From contig JAEYSJ010000350.1 of the NCBI GenBank assembly GCA_023434855.1, forward strand, positions 1 through 6,978: a DNA stretch of 6,978 bases, read 5' to 3'. Positions 1 to 6,978 of this stretch are shown here, piece by piece. A model generated the notes under the pieces. That model was not told the DNA's origin, did not search any database, and was given only the letters and a program-made list of their open reading frames with translations. The position numbers and the translations under genes are program-made. How positions within the stretch are numbered: position 1 is the stretch's first letter; the number at the start of each line of letters is the position of its first letter. The stretch is from Bacillota bacterium (GTDB taxonomy: Bacteria; Bacillota_C; Negativicutes; JAEYSJ01).

Positions 1-2583
1 GTATTTAGCGCCATTGGTACTAATAACGCCAATATCGGCGCCAAAGTCGTCGAACAAAACGGCCAGGAATATGTCATCCGTGGTTTAGGGCTTGTACAGT
101 CTATTGAAGATATCAAAAATATTGTCATTACCCAAAATAACAATGTGCCGATCTATGTAAAAGATGTAGCCCGCGTAACGGCTGGCCCGGATTTTCGCCG
201 GGGCGTATTAACCAAGGAAGGTTATGAAGCGGCCGGTGGCATTGTAATCCAACGGATGGGCGAAAATACACTGAATGTTATTGACCAGGTTAAGGCTAAA
301 ATTGCTGAAATTCAACCTGCTTTGCCGGAAGGTATGCATATTGTTCCTTATTATGATCAAACCGACCTGGTCAAAAAAGCGGTGCATACCCTGCAACGGG
401 CCCTGATTGAAGAATTTATCCTCGTGTCGATTATTGTCCTTGTCTTTCTCGGCAATTTACGGACTAGCGCGATAGTGACAAGTGCCATTCCAATCGGTAT
501 CCTGATTGCGTTGATTACCATGAAAAATATTCATTTGTCAGCGAATCTTATGTCTTTAGGCGGTATTGCCATTGGTATCGGGGTCATGACCGATGCGGCC
601 ATTGTAATGGTGGAAAACGTCTTTCGTCACTTGGCCGAGGACGGCGGTCGCCGGAATATTATCGATGTGACCTTGGAAGCCGCCAAAGAAGTAGCTGTTC
701 CGATTTTCTTTTCCATTACGATTATCATTGTTACTTTCTTGCCGGTATTTACCATGACCGGTACGGAAGGCAAAATGTACACTCCCATGGCCTTTGCCAA
801 AACCTTCGCCATGACAGGATCACTTATCCTGGCCTTTACGCTGGTACCTGTGCTGTGCACTGTACTACTTAAAGGCAAAATACAAGAAAAGGATACTTGG
901 GTTGTGGCAAAGCTGCACCAACTCTATGTGCCGATCCTCAACACTGTCCTTAAATATCGCAAGACGACGCTTATTGTTGCCTTAGTCGTCATGATCTCTG
1001 GGTTTTCCATACTACCGTTTATCGGTACCACCTTTATGCCGTCATTGGATGAAGGGACAATTTTGATTATGCCGACGATGCTGCCCAGCGTATCGCTGAC
1101 TCAAGCTGTGGAAGCGGCTAAAACCATGGACAAAATCATCATGCAAATACCAGAAGTAGACATGTCGGTTGGTAAAGTTGGCCGGGCAGAATCAGCGATG
1201 GACCCGGCGCCTGTTAATATGATTGAGACGGTGGTTACTTTAAAACCGAAAGAACAGTGGCGGCCCGGTATGACGAAAGATGATATCGAAAAAGAGATGA
1301 TGGACAAATTGGCCAATATTCCTGGTCTGAATTTGGCTTCGACCCAGCCCATTGCCGGACGATTATCCATGTTGACCACCGGCGTACGGACTGATCTGGG
1401 GATTAAGCTCTATGGCGAAGATCTAAAAGTACTGCAGCAAAAAGCCATGGATATCGAAGATGCGTTAGGAGCGGTGCCGGGAGTCAGCGATCTCTATGCC
1501 GAGCGGGTATTTGGCGCTCCGTACTTAGAAATCCATGTTGACCGGGAGAAAGCAGCCCGGTATGGTCTCAACATTAATGATGTGGAAGATGCTGTGGAAA
1601 CGGCAGTAGGTGGTAAGGCGGCCAGTACGACTATTGAAGGGCGCAAACGTTTCGATATACTGGTGCGCTATAACCGGGCGAACCGGGAGAGTATAGACGC
1701 TATGCAGAATATACTCATTCCCGCAAGCGGCGGCTCTGCCAAAAACAGCAGCGGTGGTATGGGCGGAGGCGGCATGGGTGGAGCAGTTGCCAGTGCTGCT
1801 GCCGGCCCGGCTGCCGGTGCGTATGTTCCTCTGGGGGCAGTCGCCCAATTTCAGGTTGTTGACGGTCCTTCCATGATTAGCAGTGAAAATGGCATTTACC
1901 GGATTGTTATCCAGATGAATACCAAGGGTAGGGATGTGGTTAGTTTTGTTGATGAAGCGAATAAAGTGATTAAGGAAAAGGTGGATTTGCCGCCCGGATA
2001 TTCGCTTAAATGGACTGGGCAATACGAAAACCAGCAGCGGGCGAAAAACCGGTTGGCACTTGTGGTACCGGCGGTTATCGTGCTTACCTTCTTCCTGTTA
2101 TATATGGCTTTCAATTCAGCCAGTGATGCTTTACTGATATTACTGAATGTTCCTTTCTCCCTGGTAGGCGGTATTGTGGCCATTTATGCCGCCCATATCT
2201 ACCTGACTGTAGCGGCGGCTGTCGGTTTTATCGCTCTCTTTGGCATCGCCGTGCAAAACGGGGTTATCATGGTGACTTATATCAAAAAGCTGCGCGAAGA
2301 AAAACCGTTGCACGAAGCGGTTGTTGAAGGCGCCAGCGCCCGTTTGCGGCCGGTTATGATGACCGCATTGGTAGCCAGCTTAGGACTCTTCCCGCTTATT
2401 TACTCAAATGGTACCGGTGCCGAGGTGCAGCGGCCGATGGCCACCGTGGTGGTGGGCGGCTTGGTGACAGCAACGATTCTGACACTTTTTGTACTACCTT
2501 GTATTTACCAGGTGTGGAATGAGTGGCTGGAGCGCCGGCAAAACTCTGCGGTAGCCGGCAGCAATATCATTGATAATAAATAA
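1..2583 (+). CDS. cusA: Heavy-metal RND efflux pump, CusA/CzcA family (5' end missing)
   Basis: This is the inner-membrane proton/metal antiporter of a tripartite efflux system, probably exporting Cu(I)/Ag(I). The frame is open from base 1, so the gene starts upstream. The in-frame GTG at 145 lies inside the porter domain and is not the start. 860 residues are visible; by alignment to E. coli CusA (recalled, about 1047 aa) roughly 200 are missing. Visible order: porter-domain remnant, TM2-TM6 (about residues 130-290), TM7 near 315-335, a long periplasmic domain, TM8 near 690, and the last helices to the C-terminus. TM4 reads NLMSLGGIAIGIGVMTDAA, close to the Cu/Ag (HME4) signature. Its Met184, Met196 and Met203 correspond to CusA Met391, Met403 and Met410, and Asp198 to the proton-relay Asp405. 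Oddities are a 32-residue Gly/Ala/Met-rich insertion (576-607) and Cys286 where CusA has Met501. The lipoprotein gene follows 26 nt later, implying one operon. Family is certain; Cu/Ag rather than Zn/Co is an inference from TM4. Confidence 0.96.
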   Translation, partial: VFSAIGTNNANIGAKVVEQNGQEYVIRGLGLVQSIEDIKNIVITQNNNVPIYVKDVARVTAGPDFRRGVLTKEGYEAAGGIVIQRMGENTLNVIDQVKAKIAEIQPALPEGMHIVPYYDQTDLVKKAVHTLQRALIEEFILVSIIVLVFLGNLRTSAIVTSAIPIGILIALITMKNIHLSANLMSLGGIAIGIGVMTDAAIVMVENVFRHLAEDGGRRNIIDVTLEAAKEVAVPIFFSITIIIVTFLPVFTMTGTEGKMYTPMAFAKTFAMTGSLILAFTLVPVLCTVLLKGKIQEKDTWVVAKLHQLYVPILNTVLKYRKTTLIVALVVMISGFSILPFIGTTFMPSLDEGTILIMPTMLPSVSLTQAVEAAKTMDKIIMQIPEVDMSVGKVGRAESAMDPAPVNMIETVVTLKPKEQWRPGMTKDDIEKEMMDKLANIPGLNLASTQPIAGRLSMLTTGVRTDLGIKLYGEDLKVLQQKAMDIEDALGAVPGVSDLYAERVFGAPYLEIHVDREKAARYGLNINDVEDAVETAVGGKAASTTIEGRKRFDILVRYNRANRESIDAMQNILIPASGGSAKNSSGGMGGGGMGGAVASAAAGPAAGAYVPLGAVAQFQVVDGPSMISSENGIYRIVIQMNTKGRDVVSFVDEANKVIKEKVDLPPGYSLKWTGQYENQQRAKNRLALVVPAVIVLTFFLLYMAFNSASDALLILLNVPFSLVGGIVAIYAAHIYLTVAAAVGFIALFGIAVQNGVIMVTYIKKLREEKPLHEAVVEGASARLRPVMMTALVASLGLFPLIYSNGTGAEVQRPMATVVVGGLVTATILTLFVLPCIYQVWNEWLERRQNSAVAGSNIIDNK

Positions 2584-2609: not shown

Positions 2610-3092
2610 ATGACAAAGAAAAGTAAATTGGCAGCAGGAATTATGGTTATGACGGTGGCGGTATCTTTGGTTGCGGGCTGCGGCTCCAACGAAAAACAGG
2701 CTGCGCAGCAACCGGCGGCGCAGCAGGCATCCGGAGATATGAAGGGACATGACATGGGCAATATGAATATGAACATGAATATGCCCAAAGGAGATCCGAT
2801 GCCGCTGGTAAAAGATGTGGATAAAGAGCTGCAAGATATTCTAAAACAGGTTAAAGCCGGTCAAACGATGGATGCGCAACAAACAGCCGGAATGTTGGCA
2901 GGCACTGTCGAGAAAATTATCCCGCATATGATGGATGAGGGCTTAAAAACCAATTTACGGAAAGCGGCAACTGATATTAAAGATAGTGTAAATTCCGGTA
3001 AAGCTGATCCGGGAGCAATCGAAGGCAAAGTGAAAGTAATGCAGGATATTATGAAACAAGTAACCACCGACGTGCAAAGCATGCACCATTAA
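2610..3092 (+). CDS. Met-rich lipoprotein, putative periplasmic copper/silver-binding protein
   Basis: A 160-residue protein with a lipoprotein signal: Lys-rich N-terminus, hydrophobic stretch 7-22, and lipobox V21-A22-G23-C24, so Cys24 should be lipidated. After a Gln/Ala-rich linker (28-41) comes a Met cluster (Met44, 49, 52, 54, 56, 58, 64 with His47), including an alternating Asn-Met run. This is the thioether-rich composition typical of periplasmic Cu(I)/Ag(I) carriers. Residues 66-157 look helical and end in Met-His-His. The start at 2610 is fixed by an AGGAGG at 2596-2601 with an 8-nt spacer. It lies 26 nt after the RND gene with no terminator between. I infer that it binds metal and may feed the pump, as CusF does for CusA, but it shows no CusF-like beta-barrel and I do not recognise a named family. 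Metal binding is inferred from composition and context only. Confidence 0.9.
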   Translation: MTKKSKLAAGIMVMTVAVSLVAGCGSNEKQAAQQPAAQQASGDMKGHDMGNMNMNMNMPKGDPMPLVKDVDKELQDILKQVKAGQTMDAQQTAGMLAGTVEKIIPHMMDEGLKTNLRKAATDIKDSVNSGKADPGAIEGKVKVMQDIMKQVTTDVQSMHH

Positions 3093-3118
3093 TCGTTCGG
3101 GACGGAGAGGTGCGGCTG

Positions 3119-3672
3119 ATGAAAAAGTGGATAATTACCCTGCTTGCCGGGGTATTGCTTAGTGGCACAGCAGTTGTTCAGGCGGCGCCAGCCTCCGGGT
3201 ACAGTCAGTTTATGCAGTCACTTGATTCTATTATGGCGGGGGCAACAATGCCGGTGGCTGATGAGCAGCTTATTGCGGCCCGGACGGGTTTTCAGCCGAG
3301 CGGGCAGGCTGCCCAAGTGTTGGCAGTAGCCAGGGATATGCTTGGTCAGCCGGTAGTCTGGGGGGAGCTTCGCCGGCGCAAGGTTTTGATTGTTCCGGTT
3401 TGGTGCAGTATGTATACAGGCAGGCCGGGATAAGTTTACCGCGTACAGCGGATTTACAGTTCCTGGTCGGGAGGACGGTGGCGCCATCCTCCCTCCAGGC
3501 GGGAGACTTGGTATATTTCACGACTTATGAGCCAGGAGCGTCCCATGTGGGGATTTATATCGGCAGAGACAAGTTTATTCACACATCTTTCTCGCAAGGG
3601 ATAGTGGCTATCGGTGATATGAATGACAGCTATTTCGTCAAACGTTATTATGGTGCCAAACGAGTATTATAA
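3119..3672 (+). pseudogene. Secreted NlpC/P60 cell-wall endopeptidase, disrupted by a -1 frameshift
   Basis: Two frames together give one NlpC/P60 peptidase, the family that cleaves peptidoglycan stem peptides outside the cytoplasm. The first part (3119-3433) has a signal peptide with likely cleavage after V20-Q21-A22, then the domain start VARDMLGQPVVWG. It then leaves frame and would end after 104 residues. The other frame, from 3364, continues exactly with GASPAQGFDCSGLVQYVYRQ. It carries the catalytic Cys (codon 3391-3393), the His of SHVGIYIG (3544-3546) and a third polar His (3580-3582), and stops at 3670-3672. Adding one G to the G6 run at 3360-3365 restores a 184-residue protein. ATG 3119 is chosen over GTG 3110 because GGAGAGG (3104-3110) lies 8 nt before the ATG and overlaps the GTG. 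It is the last gene of the RND operon. The lesion may be a real mutation, a phase-variable tract or a homopolymer sequencing error; the rest of the gene shows no decay. Confidence 0.85.
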
Positions 3673-3712
3673 AAAAAGCGCAGGCAATCTTTTGGTTGCC
3701 TGCTGCTTTTTT
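3671..3712. terminator. Bidirectional rho-independent terminator between convergent genes
   Basis: CAGGCAA (3681-3687) pairs with TTGCCTG (3696-3702) around an 8-nt loop. The stem extends through GCG/CGC with one bulged T (3704), flanked by A7 on the left and T6 on the right. The T tract ends transcripts of the + strand RND operon directly after its last stop codon. The A tract gives a U run for the - strand gene whose stop is at 3730. Confidence 0.88.
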
Positions 3713-3729
3713 CGCCATCTTCAAATAAA

Positions 3730-4053
3730 CTACTTCTTGCTTGACAATTGCTTAATCTGTTCTTGTAATTCCTTTATTTGCTTTTTCATATCATTCATTT
3801 CTTTCTCTTTCTGCTGGTCTTCTTTCTTCTCTTTTTCTTTTTGTTGTTTTTCTTTCTGCTGATCTTCCTTTTTTCTTAATGCTTCTTCCTGAGCGGCTAC
3901 TGTTGTCATTAAAGAGCCCACTGCCGAAAGAAAATTGCCCAATACATTTATTTGTTGAAGGTTTAATACCTCGGAGAATGCCTCAGTAACAAGAGCTGCT
4001 AATATATTAAGTTCTTCAGGGGACAACTCAAAAAAAAGCATTCGACTTTCCAT
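3730..4053 (-). CDS. Small hypothetical protein with conserved-looking N-terminal domain and Lys/Glu/Gln coiled coil
   Basis: A protein of 107 residues (111 if started at 4065), with no function I can assign. The N-terminal half is helical and amphipathic, with ELSPEELNILAAL followed by INVLGNFLSAVGSLMTTVAAQ. It resembles small Firmicute proteins of unknown function that I recall only vaguely. From about residue 59 of the longer form to the end it is a highly charged Lys/Glu/Gln/Asp coiled coil. An internal duplication (KKEDQQKEK twice, 15 residues apart) leads into a heptad-like end, MKKQIKELQEQIKQL. There is no signal peptide or membrane segment. I chose ATG 4053 because GGGGAG lies 4 nt upstream and a TATAAT at 4079-4074 would start the transcript almost at ATG 4065, leaving that start without a leader. 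ATG 4065 (AGGA only 1 nt away) and ATG 4041 remain possible. The gene is monocistronic between two hairpin terminators. Confidence 0.75.
   Translation of the reverse strand: MESRMLFFELSPEELNILAALVTEAFSEVLNLQQINVLGNFLSAVGSLMTTVAAQEEALRKKEDQQKEKQQKEKEKKEDQQKEKEMNDMKKQIKELQEQIKQLSSKK
3807..3867 (-). repeat. 45-bp-period internal duplication in the coiled-coil region
   Basis: The 16-mer at 3807-3822 recurs at 3852-3867 with a single base change (G to A). It encodes the repeated KKEDQQKEK peptide on the - strand. The region is almost pure pyrimidine on the + strand, so slippage expansion is plausible. Confidence 0.6.
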
Positions 4054-4073
4054 CGTGCTCCCCATTTCCTAAT

Positions 4074-4079
4074 ATTATA
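4074..4079 (-). promoter_or_regulatory. -10 box for the coiled-coil protein gene
   Basis: A perfect TATAAT on the - strand, 20 nt upstream of the preferred ATG at 4053. No good -35 is visible; TCATTG at 4101-4096 with a 16-bp spacer is the nearest. The 11-bp operator seen at other promoters in the window is absent here. Confidence 0.5.
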
Positions 4080-4158
4080 CAAAAGAGTTATATTGCAATG
4101 ATCCAAGCTGATTTTAATACAATTCTATATTTAAGATTAATGGAAATATATGCTGATG

Positions 4159-4187
4159 TGCTATTATAAATTCAGTATGCTATTATA
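4159..4187. repeat. 10-bp direct repeat in AT-rich intergenic DNA
   Basis: TGCTATTATA occurs at 4159-4168 and 4178-4187, a 19-bp period. It lies in the 211-bp gap between the two - strand genes, which otherwise holds only the 4217-4259 hairpin and the promoter at 4074. I see no function for it. Confidence 0.4.
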
Positions 4188-4216
4188 TATCATCTGTCTT
4201 ATTGCTAGTCATTTGC

Positions 4217-4259
4217 AAAGAAAGTAAAAGTCGCCGGTTTGGCGACTTTTACTTTCTTT
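4217..4259. terminator. Strong rho-independent terminator of the HesB-like gene
   Basis: A perfect 19-bp stem (4217-4235 with 4241-4259) closes a GGTTT loop. The core is GTCGCC/GGCGAC, with A-rich and T-rich outer arms. On the - strand it begins 17 nt after the stop of the gene at 4277-4579 and ends in a T-rich arm. It is symmetric, so it should also block + strand readthrough. Confidence 0.88.
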
Positions 4260-4276
4260 ATTGAAAAATTACTTCC

Positions 4277-4579
4277 CTACTGACTACCTAAAGCCAGAAG
4301 CTGTTTATAGAATAATATTCCCTCAACTTTTACAGTAACGGTTTTAAACACATTTGCTACAGAATCTGGATAATAAATTTCGATACCATCAATTACATTT
4401 TTCACGTAAACATTGACATCGAAGGGACTTACACCCAGCTTTACGTACGGGTATATTCCTCCGCCTACGCTGCACCCGCAACTCGCACCGTCTCGTTTGC
4501 CAACTCCAAGGGTAATCGCTTTATCAGGACTTTTCTTAATAATATAGTTGCGCGCTGACTCCTCAAGGTTAATTTTCAT
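4277..4579 (-). CDS. Small HesB/IscA-like protein with a Cys-Gly-Cys motif
   Basis: A 100-residue cytoplasmic protein. The N-terminus (MKINLEESARNYIIKK) and the beta-rich remainder, including DGIEIYYPDSV and VKVEGILFYKQLLALG, resemble HesB/IscA-fold proteins. They are closest to the small family annotated as CC/Se motif (seleno)proteins, as I recall it. The only cysteines are Cys34 and Cys36 in GASCGCSVGGG, where that family has a Cys-Cys or Sec-Cys pair. Canonical IscA has three separated cysteines, so this is unlikely to be an ordinary Fe-S carrier. A CxC pair could bind Cu(I) or another thiophilic metal, or be redox active. The start is supported by GAGG (4591-4588) 8 nt before the ATG. 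The gene is monocistronic, divergent from the two-component genes, and has a promoter with four tandem 11-bp units. That the gene is real is near certain; the family is tentative and the function unknown. Confidence 0.85.
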   Translation of the reverse strand: MKINLEESARNYIIKKSPDKAITLGVGKRDGASCGCSVGGGIYPYVKLGVSPFDVNVYVKNVIDGIEIYYPDSVANVFKTVTVKVEGILFYKQLLALGSQ

Positions 4580-4618
4580 AAAGCATACCTCACTTTCATT
4601 AAACCTCTTCTTGTATTA

Positions 4619-4673
4619 ATTATAATTAAAGAATGTGAATCTTTAGTGAATGACCAATGAATTTCTTGTGTTT
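4619..4673 (-). promoter_or_regulatory. Promoter of the HesB-like gene with four tandem 11-bp operator units
   Basis: Read on the - strand from 4673: AAACACAA, ATTCATTG, ATTCACTA, ATTCACAT, each followed by 3 bases except the last, giving an exact 11-bp period. The last unit ends at 4633. Eight bases later comes a perfect TATAAT (4624-4619). There is no TTGACA-like -35 at the usual distance; the units occupy that place, as in promoters activated by OmpR/PhoB-type regulators. Identifying the regulator is inference. Confidence 0.7.
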
Positions 4674-4682
4674 TTCGATTGA

Positions 4683-4715
4683 TTTAATATCTTCTTCACA
4701 AATAGTTGCTATAAT
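4683..4715 (+). promoter_or_regulatory. Promoter of the two-component operon
   Basis: TATAAT at 4710-4715 is preceded by TG at 4707-4708 (extended -10), with no good -35. CTTCACAA at 4694-4701 ends exactly 8 bp before the -10, the same register as the operators of the other metal-type promoters here. The unit 11 bp upstream (4683-4690) is poor. A single good site plus an extended -10 would fit basal expression with mild autoregulation. The leader to the start codon is about 54 nt. Confidence 0.7.
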
Positions 4716-4775
4716 GAAGATGAAAAGATATATGGGCCATAAGAAAAGGGCACTGGAGGACATGAGGTGTGGTGA

Positions 4776-5471
4776 ATGAAAGTATTAGTCGTAGATGATG
4801 ATGAAAAGATTATCAAGGTGTTGGCTGCCTATCTGGAAAAAGAGGGGTATACGGTAGAGACAGCTAGGGAGGGCTGGGAAGCTGTAGGTAAGACGCGGCA
4901 GACGCAGCCCGATATCGTACTGCTTGATGTAATGCTGCCCGGACTTGATGGCTGGGAAGTATTGAAAGAAATCCGGCGAGACAATGATGTGCCGATTATC
5001 ATGCTTACTGCCCGCGATGCTGAAACTGACCGGGTAATTGGGCTGGAGATCGGGGCTGACGACTATGTGACTAAGCCCTTTAGCCCGCGGGAAGTTATTG
5101 CCCGGATACGGGCTATTTTCCGGCGGATAAAGCCTGGAGAGCATCGGGACAAGGGGAAGAGTGAACTTAGATTTGGTGATATTATTTTCCGGCAGCATGA
5201 TCACACTTTAATCGTTCAAGGGAATCCGGTGGAGTTGACGCCTACCGAATTTAAGCTGCTGGAACTATTTCTGACCCATCCCGGTCAAGTTTTTTCCCGG
5301 TTGCAGTTGATTGAGAATATCCAGGATTATTCCTTTGAAGGCTATGAACGGACAGTGGATTCCCATATCAAGAACCTACGCAAAAAGCTGGGAGATTCCT
5401 TTGGTGAGCCCCGGTATATTAAAACCGTCTATGGTGTGGGATATAAGTTGGCAGGTGAGCAGCATGCGTAG
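4776..5471 (+). CDS. OmpR/PhoB-family response regulator
   Basis: A 231-residue DNA-binding response regulator. The receiver domain (1-115) has the acidic pocket Asp7-Asp8-Asp9, the phosphoacceptor Asp51 in LLDVMLPG, Thr78 and Lys100 in VTKPF. After a short linker, the C-terminal winged helix (about 128-228) shows LTPTEFKLLELF, the recognition-helix region ERTVDSHIKNLRKKLG and the wing IKTVYGVGYKL. The start is fixed: an in-frame TGA lies directly before ATG 4776, and GAGGTG (4764-4769) is 6 nt upstream. The kinase gene overlaps its end by 8 nt, so the two are cotranslated partners. Metal context suggests a CusR/CopR-like role, but sequence alone does not show the ligand. The 11-bp tandem repeats at four nearby promoters fit the head-to-tail dimer binding of this family and are its likely targets. 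Confidence 0.97.
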   Translation: MKVLVVDDDEKIIKVLAAYLEKEGYTVETAREGWEAVGKTRQTQPDIVLLDVMLPGLDGWEVLKEIRRDNDVPIIMLTARDAETDRVIGLEIGADDYVTKPFSPREVIARIRAIFRRIKPGEHRDKGKSELRFGDIIFRQHDHTLIVQGNPVELTPTEFKLLELFLTHPGQVFSRLQLIENIQDYSFEGYERTVDSHIKNLRKKLGDSFGEPRYIKTVYGVGYKLAGEQHA

Positions 5472-6594
5472 TCTTCTTGTCCGGGTGACAGTTACTTTAT
5501 TTTTGACAATGGCAGTCACAGTGGTTGGGGTGCTGCTGGTCGTCAATTATCAGGTAACCGAACATTTTACACAATATCTGCATATGAGCGGAATGCATGG
5601 CATGATGATGAATCGTGGTAACATGGCGGCCATGATGGGATTGCCGGAGAACCAATTTTTGGTTTCCTTAAAACAATCGCTGCTGGCTGTTGCCGGCGGG
5701 ATGATGCTGGTAGGTGCCGGAGTCAGCTATTATCTGGCTCGTAGTATTGCTATTCCGGTAATCAGCCTGAACCGAGGGGTTAACGCGGTGACAGCAGGAG
5801 ACCTAAATATTGAAGTGATGGTGGACAGACAGGACGAAGTTGGACAACTGGCTTCGTCATTTAACGCGATGACGGCCAAGCTAAAATCAAATACTGTCCT
5901 TCGCCAACGTTTTCTGGCCGGTGTGGCTCACGAACTTAAGACCCCACTGACCATACTAAAGGCCAACCTGGAAGGAATCACCGATGGTGTCATTACTCCA
6001 GATACCCAGCAAATAAATTCCCTGACTGAGGAAGTGGACAGACTGACGAAAATGGTCGGCGAACTCAGGGATCTGTCCTTATTAGAGGCAGGACAAATGC
6101 AACCGGAATTTACTCTTTCAGATATAAACCAACTTTTAAACCAGGTAGTGGTGAAAAGTAAGCCATTAGCCGGCGAAAAAAACATCGGTCTGCGTCTGGA
6201 GGCAATTAATATATTGCCGTCAATTTTGGCTGATGCCGCCATGGTCAGCCAAATGGTATATAACCTTGTCATAAATGCCATCAAATATACTCCTGCTGGC
6301 GGACAAGTTATCGTAACGACAGATATCCAAGATGGCATGGTCAAAATTATGGTGACTGATACCGGAATAGGAATTGCGGTTGATGATATAGAACATGTTT
6401 TTGATTATTTTTATCGTGTAGACCCAGCCCGGGCAAAAGCCAGTGGTGGGACCGGCCTGGGATTAGCCATTGTCAAACAAATGGCGCTGGCCCATGGCGG
6501 GCAGGTCAAGGTTGAAAGCGTAATAGGTCAAGGAAGCAAATTTACTGTATTACTGCCGCTAAAATTACATGAAAAATTCATGGTTTCTCCATAA
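5464..6594 (+). CDS. Membrane sensor histidine kinase with a Met/His-rich extracytoplasmic loop
   Basis: A 376-residue kinase, partner of the overlapping regulator. ATG 5464 is chosen because it is preceded by AGGTGA (5453-5458), opens directly into TM1 and overlaps the regulator stop by 8 nt; longer readings run through regulator coding DNA. Order: TM1 about 8-27; extracytoplasmic loop about 28-70; TM2 about 72-92; HAMP about 93-147; H-box VAHELKTP with His156; dimerisation helices to about 215; N-box with Asn271; D-box DTGIGI with Asp299; F-box VFDYFYRVD; G2 box GGTGLGLAIVKQ (328-339). All catalytic motifs are intact. The loop holds Met41, 44, 47, 48, 49, 54, 57, 58 and His34, 40, 45, a composition suited to Cu(I) or Ag(I). 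CusS-type sensors use a much larger folded periplasmic domain. Metal specificity is inferred. The gene's last codons overlap the operator of the next promoter. Confidence 0.97.
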   Translation: MRSLLVRVTVTLFLTMAVTVVGVLLVVNYQVTEHFTQYLHMSGMHGMMMNRGNMAAMMGLPENQFLVSLKQSLLAVAGGMMLVGAGVSYYLARSIAIPVISLNRGVNAVTAGDLNIEVMVDRQDEVGQLASSFNAMTAKLKSNTVLRQRFLAGVAHELKTPLTILKANLEGITDGVITPDTQQINSLTEEVDRLTKMVGELRDLSLLEAGQMQPEFTLSDINQLLNQVVVKSKPLAGEKNIGLRLEAINILPSILADAAMVSQMVYNLVINAIKYTPAGGQVIVTTDIQDGMVKIMVTDTGIGIAVDDIEHVFDYFYRVDPARAKASGGTGLGLAIVKQMALAHGGQVKVESVIGQGSKFTVLLPLKLHEKFMVSP

Positions 6595-6619
6595 AAACTC
6601 CATAATGTTAGGCTATACT
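6565..6619 (+). promoter_or_regulatory. Promoter of the SHOCT gene with tandem 11-bp operator units
   Basis: Units TTACATGA (6565), ATTCATGG (6576), CTCCATAA (6587) and CTCCATAA (6598) follow an exact 11-bp period; the last two are identical. The last unit ends at 6605, 8 bp before TATACT (6614-6619). No -35 is visible. The operator runs into the 3' end of the kinase gene, which stops at 6592-6594. I see no terminator after the kinase, so readthrough from the two-component operon could also express the next gene. Confidence 0.72.
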
Positions 6620-6648
6620 ATGACTAACACAAGGGAGGTGTATAGAAT

Positions 6649-6891
6649 ATGATGATGGGATATGGTTTCAATGGTTTCTCCAGTTGGCTGGGAATGGGCT
6701 TTGGGATTATCAGTCATCTTGCTTTTACCGCGCTGATCATTATGGCGGCAATCTGGATGTATAAAACTGTCTTTCGGGGGGAATGCCGCAGTGATCGTGG
6801 GACTGACGCCATGGAGATATTGAAGCAGCGCTACGCCAAAGGGGAAATTACCAGTGATGAGTATCAACGCATAAAAAAAGAACTGGAATAA
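6649..6891 (+). CDS. Small single-pass membrane protein with C-terminal SHOCT domain
   Basis: An 80-residue protein: a short Met/Gly/Phe-rich N-terminus (Met1-3, Met16), one membrane helix at about 19-39, a basic and polar stretch with a single Cys46, then a SHOCT domain at 54-79 (EILKQRYAKGEITSDEYQRIKKEL). SHOCT tails are short helical modules, thought to mediate oligomerisation, on many small membrane proteins of unknown function. Such proteins are often found beside metal-resistance genes. GGAGG at 6634-6638 lies 10 nt before ATG 6649. Two further in-frame ATGs follow at once, so the exact start could shift by up to two codons. It has its own operator-bearing promoter within the end of the kinase gene. 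Role unknown; a part in the metal response is inferred from position and promoter. Confidence 0.9.
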   Translation: MMMGYGFNGFSSWLGMGFGIISHLAFTALIIMAAIWMYKTVFRGECRSDRGTDAMEILKQRYAKGEITSDEYQRIKKELE

Positions 6892-6893
6892 AA

Positions 6894-6948
6894 TCACACA
6901 AGTTATTCATAATGGCTCCATAATTTCTCCACAATAATACAGTACAAT
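6894..6948 (+). promoter_or_regulatory. Promoter of the next (unseen) gene with four tandem 11-bp operator units
   Basis: TCACACAA (6894), ATTCATAA (6905), CTCCATAA (6916) and CTCCACAA (6927) repeat at exactly 11 bp. The last ends at 6934, 8 bp before TACAAT (6943-6948). No -35 is visible. The bases after the -10 (AATGAAGAT) match those at the two-component promoter (AATGAAGAT at 4713-4721). It begins right after the SHOCT stop, so the following gene has its own transcript start. Confidence 0.72.
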
Positions 6949-6965
6949 GAAGATAAATAGAAATC

Positions 6966-6972
6966 AGGAGGG
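6966..6972 (+). promoter_or_regulatory. Ribosome binding site of a gene starting just beyond the window
   Basis: AGGAGGG with 6 bases left before the window ends. The spacing predicts a start codon at or very near base 6979. Nothing of its product is visible. Confidence 0.7.
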
Positions 6973-6978
6973 AAAAAC

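Follow-up and report, generated by a model that had tools for sequence, protein, structure and literature searches.

Tandem 11-bp arrays, proposed as OmpR/PhoB-type operators, beside a two-component system and metal-efflux genes in a Negativicutes genome

Genes and repeat arrays of the locus

The window analysed here is the whole stretch of 6,978 nucleotides of contig JAEYSJ010000350.1 (assembly GCA_023434855.1), which derives from a bacterium of the Negativicutes. It encodes an OmpR/PhoB-family response regulator and a sensor histidine kinase, together with a heavy-metal efflux permease and several other proteins, and carries three arrays of tandem repeats, termed sites A, B and C, and a single repeat unit, site D (Table 1). 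A sequence-only reading of the window had described the arrays as four units each at an 11-bp period, with C and A at unit positions 4 and 5 in all twelve units and a TATAAT-like box 8 bp further on; coordinates and units were found as claimed.

Table 1. Genes, repeat arrays and single repeat unit in the window
Feature	Position	Strand	Details
CusA/CzcA-family heavy-metal efflux RND permease	1..2583	+	TIGR00914, 910 bits against a cut-off of 701; 5' end beyond the window
Lipoprotein-like protein	2610-3092	+	
NlpC/P60 pieces	3110-3672	+	
Protein with no family match above cut-off	3730-4065	-	
CC/Se motif family (seleno)protein	4277..4579	-	NF041239; presumed target of site A; no in-frame TGA
Site A (TTCA type)	4619..4673	-	units 4673-4666, 4662-4655, 4651-4644, 4640-4633; -10 TATAAT 4624-4619; upstream of the CC/Se-motif gene
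Site D	4694..4715	+	one unit CTTCACAA 4694-4701; 8 nt; -10 TATAAT 4710-4715; response regulator gene promoter region
Response regulator, OmpR/PhoB family (receiver and winged helix)	4776..5471	+	PF00072, PF00486; proposed binder
Sensor histidine kinase	5464..6594	+	brief Met/His-rich segment close to the N-terminus; ends in TCT CCA TAA, codons within operator unit 3
Site B	6565..6619	+	units 6565-6572, 6576-6583, 6587-6594, 6598-6605; -10 TATACT 6614-6619; upstream of the SHOCT gene
SHOCT-domain small protein	6649..6891	+	PF09851; presumed target of site B
Site C	6894..6948	+	units 6894-6901, 6905-6912, 6916-6923, 6927-6934; -10 TACAAT 6943-6948; faces a gene past the window end

Read in order, the units of site A are AAACACAA, ATTCATTG, ATTCACTA and ATTCACAT, those of site B TTACATGA, ATTCATGG, CTCCATAA and again CTCCATAA, and those of site C TCACACAA, ATTCATAA, CTCCATAA and CTCCACAA, followed after 8 nt by TATAAT, TATACT and TACAAT, respectively. 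The outer two units of A and C, on opposite strands, are alike as had been noted, with 6 of 8 bases agreeing in each. The unit of site D stands in the same register before its TATAAT, and no CA is found at the two unit positions upstream. The reading's remark that a recognisable -35 is lacking agrees with a consensus scan of positions 3000-6978, in which A, B and C showed no -35/-10 pair of the sigma-70 type; on this ground, the idea of an ordinary, -35-bearing sigma-70 promoter was rejected for them. The units fall into two types, CTCCA in B and C and TTCA in A and D. A CTNCA core is present in B and C (CTCCATAA/CTCCACAA) and in D (CTTCACAA) and absent from A, which has ATTCA units, no CTCCA units and is clearly weaker than B and C. 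The merged consensus [CA]T[CT]CA[CT]AA proposed before is not supported, since it mixes the CTCCA type, tied to the local regulator, with the TTCA type, found also beside paralogous systems.

Three CA arrays of four units have a -10-like hexamer (at least 4 of 6 matches) at 8 bp; their mean number was 0.004 (maximum 1) when the window was dinucleotide-shuffled 1000 times, and 0.001 (maximum 1) when 5000 shuffles were made of the promoter regions alone. The excess is smaller without the -10 condition: four arrays, two of which are overlapping registers of A, were counted against a mean of 0.325, and three or more occurred in 8 of 1000 shuffles. Ranking of the window with a 55-column matrix derived from relatives only placed B (49.0), C (47.0) and A (13.0) on top, while D scored -4.1, just under overlapping registers of C and B. 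The scores of A, B, C and D were each reached by none of 2000 shuffles of the respective promoter region.

Geometry across Negativicutes genomes

Among 30 Negativicutes genomes, the two-unit core CTYCAYMANNNCTYCAYA was matched 81 times, compared to four times for a reversed-pattern control. A -10-like hexamer (at least 4 of 6) is located exactly 8 bp after the second unit in 63 of the 81 matches, the next commonest offset accounting for 13; the 18 matches without one at this distance include three overlapping registers of three-unit arrays. The relatives' matrix was built from the 56 distinct 55-mers among these 63 sites, with E. coli kept out of the training. Upstream of the 63 sites, CA is present at -11 in 52, at -22 in 45 and at -33 in four, and at any other upstream offset in at most 14 (14 at -30). 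Since CA is concentrated at -11 and -22 and scarce at -33, a complete site usually comprises four units, which fits two dimers. In two sister genomes (L122 and L123), site B has a third strong CTYCA unit ahead of the same 8-bp gap. At L178-L183 (G158 and G159), a further group of CTTCA arrays, in which the spacer is always CAT, stands ahead of small secreted proteins and of a gene for another regulator.

The unit types are distributed unequally. Sites with CTCCA in both units and a -10 at 8 bp were found in 12 of the 14 genomes with an orthologous kinase (15 sites) and in none of the 16 others. The 43 CTTCA/CTTCA sites occur in both groups (29 in the ortholog set, 14 in the others), as do the five mixed ones (3 and 2).

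Conservation at orthologous loci

Kinase matches of E <= 1e-90 were obtained in 29 of 380 genomes of the class, with the best five first-look candidates scored per genome; 14 of these genomes contain an ortholog of the kinase, with 54-74% identity, and paralogs of about 43-47% make up the remaining matches. A profile search of the contigs with the kinase alignment yielded at least 80 loci, of which two Sporomusa loci (41-43% identity) served as entry to genome sets and the others were set aside. For scoring conservation, the matrix omitted the tested genome, and for four pairs also its sister genome, and a threshold of -3.6 was applied, which was chosen after the E. coli scores were known. Site B, at the kinase stop codon, is kept in 11 of the 14 orthologous loci with scores of 33-55. 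Site C was detected with scores of 35-47 in five of nine orthologous loci with a SHOCT hit, and an array upstream of the regulator gene in five of 14 relatives (L123, L125, L126, L127 and L130). None of 47,456 coding control positions was above the same threshold. Conservation in relatives that keep the regulator, which the sequence-only reading had named as supporting evidence, is observed.

The kinase gene stops at a TAA (6592-6594) that falls within unit 3 of site B (CTCCATAA), and the codons TCT CCA TAA occupy positions 6586-6594. The sequence TCTCCATAA is present at the kinase end in nine of the 11 loci with site B, in eight of them as the in-frame last codons (L118, L119, L121, L123, L125, L126, L128 and L129), whereas in L127 the letters are kept though the kinase frame, as assembled, stops earlier. 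In L122 the kinase gene ends with TCT TCA TAA, and in L131 it ends upstream. A C-terminal VSP was found in 13 of 22 aligned kinases, the preceding residues being variable. The simplest reading is that the conservation of the kinase end would result from selection on the operator.

Regulator, kinase and recognition helix

Searches with the regulator and the kinase placed, among named relatives, Pelosinus, Sporomusa, Sporolituus and Thermosinus close to the top, all of them Negativicutes. The best PDB match of the regulator is BaeR (4b09), and 98 of 228 aligned residues are identical to E. coli BaeR. The regulator is below the BaeR equivalog cut-off (227 vs 380 bits), and its score with the PhoB model is slightly higher and still below cut-off (233.8 vs 296.2). 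The kinase is below the BaeS equivalog cut-offs (211.3 vs 500 and 209.2 vs 603), and the heavy-metal (CusRS/CopRS) models TIGR01387 and TIGR01386 were also matched below cut-off (174.8 vs 279.2 and 179.6 vs 292.55). A strict assignment to the BaeSR or CusRS family was rejected because these curated cut-offs were missed. As the best solved relative is BaeR, yet the BaeR cut-off is missed, the regulator looks BaeR-like in its working, short of an established identity as BaeR. The regulator gene of L119 was matched in two frames and is frameshifted in that assembly.

In the region of the recognition helix, all 14 orthologous regulators contain RT(V/I)DSH, and E. coli BaeR has RTIDSH. At the same helix position, 24 of 25 paralogs have Ala and one has Val, counting matches that reach residue 220; one more match (36% identity, L082) was excluded. 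Orthologs and paralogs form two clades, so that the difference between Ser and Ala may be a single historical change.

Applied to E. coli, the Negativicutes matrix gave best scores per region at the mdtA, spy and acrD promoters that were reached by 0, 1 and 0 of 2000 shuffles, respectively, and neither control promoter, narQ or yegP, stood out. The acrD promoter clearly conforms to the 8-bp gap.

Presumed targets and neighbouring genes

By a simple rule, a downstream frame was found for 57 of the 63 sites. Among representatives of these frames, family scans identified a DUF6803 membrane protein, a LemA protein, an outer-membrane efflux protein and a lipoprotein resembling the one at 2610-3092; others fell into no family. 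Of the small secreted proteins, two are above the DUF2680 cut-off and one is below it. SHOCT-type proteins and regulators among the downstream genes were recognised by eye. A CusA-family permease, an adaptor and an outer-membrane efflux protein (TolC) are encoded downstream in L118. In L131, genes for a copper-type P-type ATPase, which exceeds the TIGR01511 cut-off, and for a CopZ-like protein that stays below the CopZ cut-offs lie approximately 1 kb upstream of the regulator. A multicopper-oxidase-like frame in L121 reaches 151.7 with copper_res_A, against a cut-off of 479. Copper or silver would be the likeliest signal.

For the CC/Se gene downstream of site A, 36 matches were obtained, 20 of them with loci, of which 19 were readable (L229 is incomplete). 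Two units in the same register and with the 8-bp gap precede the gene in four of the 19 (L224-L227), namely CTTCATAA or ATTCATAA followed by ATTCACAT or ATTCATAG; in three of these the last unit is ATTCACAT as in the window. The CC/Se gene of L224 adjoins a paralogous kinase. By its score (13.0, 0 of 2000 shuffles) site A is real, and it may be controlled by a paralogous system. Many of the 36 CC/Se relatives (e.g. L224-L231, L233 and L235-L238) contain one in-frame TGA, as expected for selenocysteine, which is not present in the window gene.

The NlpC/P60 gene is divided between two reading frames close to a G run (approximately 3360-3365), with the N-terminal part in one and the catalytic domain in the other. 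It represents a pseudogene, a frameshift or a sequencing error.

Discussion

Sites B and C are, with considerable confidence, proposed to be class II activator sites to which the phosphorylated local regulator (4776-5471) would bind as two head-to-tail dimers, governing a regulon of copper or heavy-metal export and envelope functions; their CTCCATAA unit is of the BaeR type, and A and D are of the closely related TTCA type. Observed are the arrays and their geometry, how they are conserved, how they go along with the regulator, and which genes the loci contain; the local regulator is the most likely binder, and its binding, phosphorylation and activation are predicted. Outside the membrane, the kinase would sense a metal, with copper or silver the most likely. 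The phosphorylated regulator would then occupy the four 11-bp units as two head-to-tail dimers that fill the -35 region, and with the last unit 8 bp before the -10 it would be placed to contact RNA polymerase instead of a -35 element. In this way it may turn on the SHOCT protein and, in relatives, also small secreted proteins and the TolC/adaptor/CusA exporter. Sites A and D could be weaker sites of the local regulator, sites of a paralogous regulator, or both. The sequence-only reading had postulated an OmpR/PhoB-type head-to-tail operator that replaces the -35 and is linked to the local two-component system and metal-efflux genes, and this is supported by the focus of CA at -11 and -22 and by conservation together with the regulator.

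Several observations weigh against this assignment. L120 and L124 have no site B, and L130 has only a weak match (-0.8) well past the stop among the 14 loci; site C is absent from four of the nine loci with a SHOCT hit, and nine of 14 loci have no array upstream of the regulator gene. The closest relatives of the CC/Se gene among those compared (L220, L221 and L222; 66-70% identity) have no upstream array. In E. coli, spy scores 8.6 with an 11-bp gap versus 4.1 with 8 bp, and the result for mdtA is ambiguous, the top hit (-3.2) being in a register without a good -10 and the register 8 bp before TACACT scoring -8.2. The Fisher value of 1e-6 for the link between CTCCA sites and orthologs is overstated, since the 30 genomes are related and the 16 comparison genomes were hand-picked, so that the link is an association and not a proof. 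Furthermore, the orthologs of L123, L126 and L130, which have Ser in the helix, show TTCA-rich arrays at their own regulator promoters, so that residue and unit are not cleanly linked.

It is exceedingly improbable that the arrays are chance repeats: AT-rich promoter DNA and the 65 two-unit CA pairs at 11 bp within the window would favour such an origin, but shuffle tests, phase and conservation refute it for A, B and C, and D alone is still weak. A more serious alternative, to which we give somewhat less than an even chance, accepts the arrays as real and sees their principal binder, for A and D at any rate, in a paralogous BaeR/PhoB-type regulator encoded elsewhere, with the local regulator acting only at B and C or all sites being shared. 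CTTCA arrays of the same layout in genomes without the ortholog, some of them right at the ends of paralogous kinase genes (G001 and G002), are consistent with it, as are the TTCA type of A and D and the array units at the CC/Se promoters of four relatives, one of which (L224) belongs to a gene beside a paralogous kinase. The restriction of CTCCA sites to genomes with the ortholog (12 of 14 vs 0 of 16) argues for the local regulator instead, and so do the arrays at the ortholog's own promoter in five relatives, three of them with TTCA-rich units.

The likeness to the BaeR box could also be convergent, if any PhoB-family regulator with such a recognition helix settles on 11-bp repeats centred on CA, without any particular relation to BaeR. 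The pstS promoter, with CA in four units and the same distance to the -10 but a different unit (TGTCA/TTACA), points in this direction, as do the model scores of the regulator, which miss the BaeR cut-off and are slightly higher for PhoB, likewise below its own. Convergence is nevertheless considered unlikely: the common part is CTCCATAA and thus more than CA, BaeR is the best PDB match, RT(V/I)DSHIKNLR is common to BaeR and the orthologs in the region of the recognition helix, and the Negativicutes matrix picks three BaeR promoters and neither of the two controls.

If BaeR-type regulation by the local regulator is taken further, one operator grammar may be common to E. coli BaeR and the metal-responsive regulators of the Negativicutes (outer-membrane-bearing Firmicutes), in which a helix Ser (RT[VI]DSH) would read CTCCA and Ala (RT[VI]DAH) would read CTTCA; the operator within the last codons of the kinase (TCT CCA TAA) would imply that regulatory selection fixes its C-terminus. 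This extension is tentative, and we rather doubt that it holds in full. It offers a simple recognition-helix hypothesis, Ser or Ala against C or T. The precise conserved operator of four units and an 8-bp gap, for Negativicutes two-component systems amid metal-export genes, should make regulons in this class predictable by sequence and ties them to the BaeR box.

Comparison with known operators

Copper/silver RND export is controlled by the two-component systems CusRS/CopRS; to our knowledge, CopR boxes are not tandem repeats of the present type. Direct repeats of approximately 11-bp period are bound by other members of the OmpR/PhoB family, as in the mycobacterial PhoP box and those of Bacillus PhoP/WalR, where unit sequence and regulon differ from those described here. 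No description of a four-unit Negativicutes operator was found among the titles and abstract openings covered by a narrow literature check. The view of the sequence-only reading that this is not a described operator was nevertheless too strong, since the CTCCATAA units match the E. coli BaeR box and the layout equals that of E. coli pstS. The published BaeR box reads TTTTTCTCCATDATTGGC or TCTNCANAA, with a CTNCA core (PMC3799227, PMC3915751). Chromatin immunoprecipitation with exonuclease digestion (ChIP-exo) located BaeR upstream of spy and mdtA (PMC7657598), and clustering of BaeS was triggered by copper (PMC4780735). The operator shares with the BaeR box the CTCCATAA-type unit, the CTNCA core and targets of RND efflux and small envelope proteins; here, however, four units follow at exactly 11 bp, whereas in E. 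coli one or two strong units are accompanied by weaker neighbours. With the PhoB pho box of E. coli pstS it has in common four tandem 11-bp units, CA in the same phase and a distance of 13 bp between the last C and the -10, for which we take TATTTT at pstS, while the unit of the pho box is TGTCA/TTACA and not CTCCA, and its regulon is that of phosphate. On solid grounds, then, the operator is a new example of the familiar OmpR/PhoB-type switch and not a new type, combining the layout of pstS with the sequence of the BaeR box.

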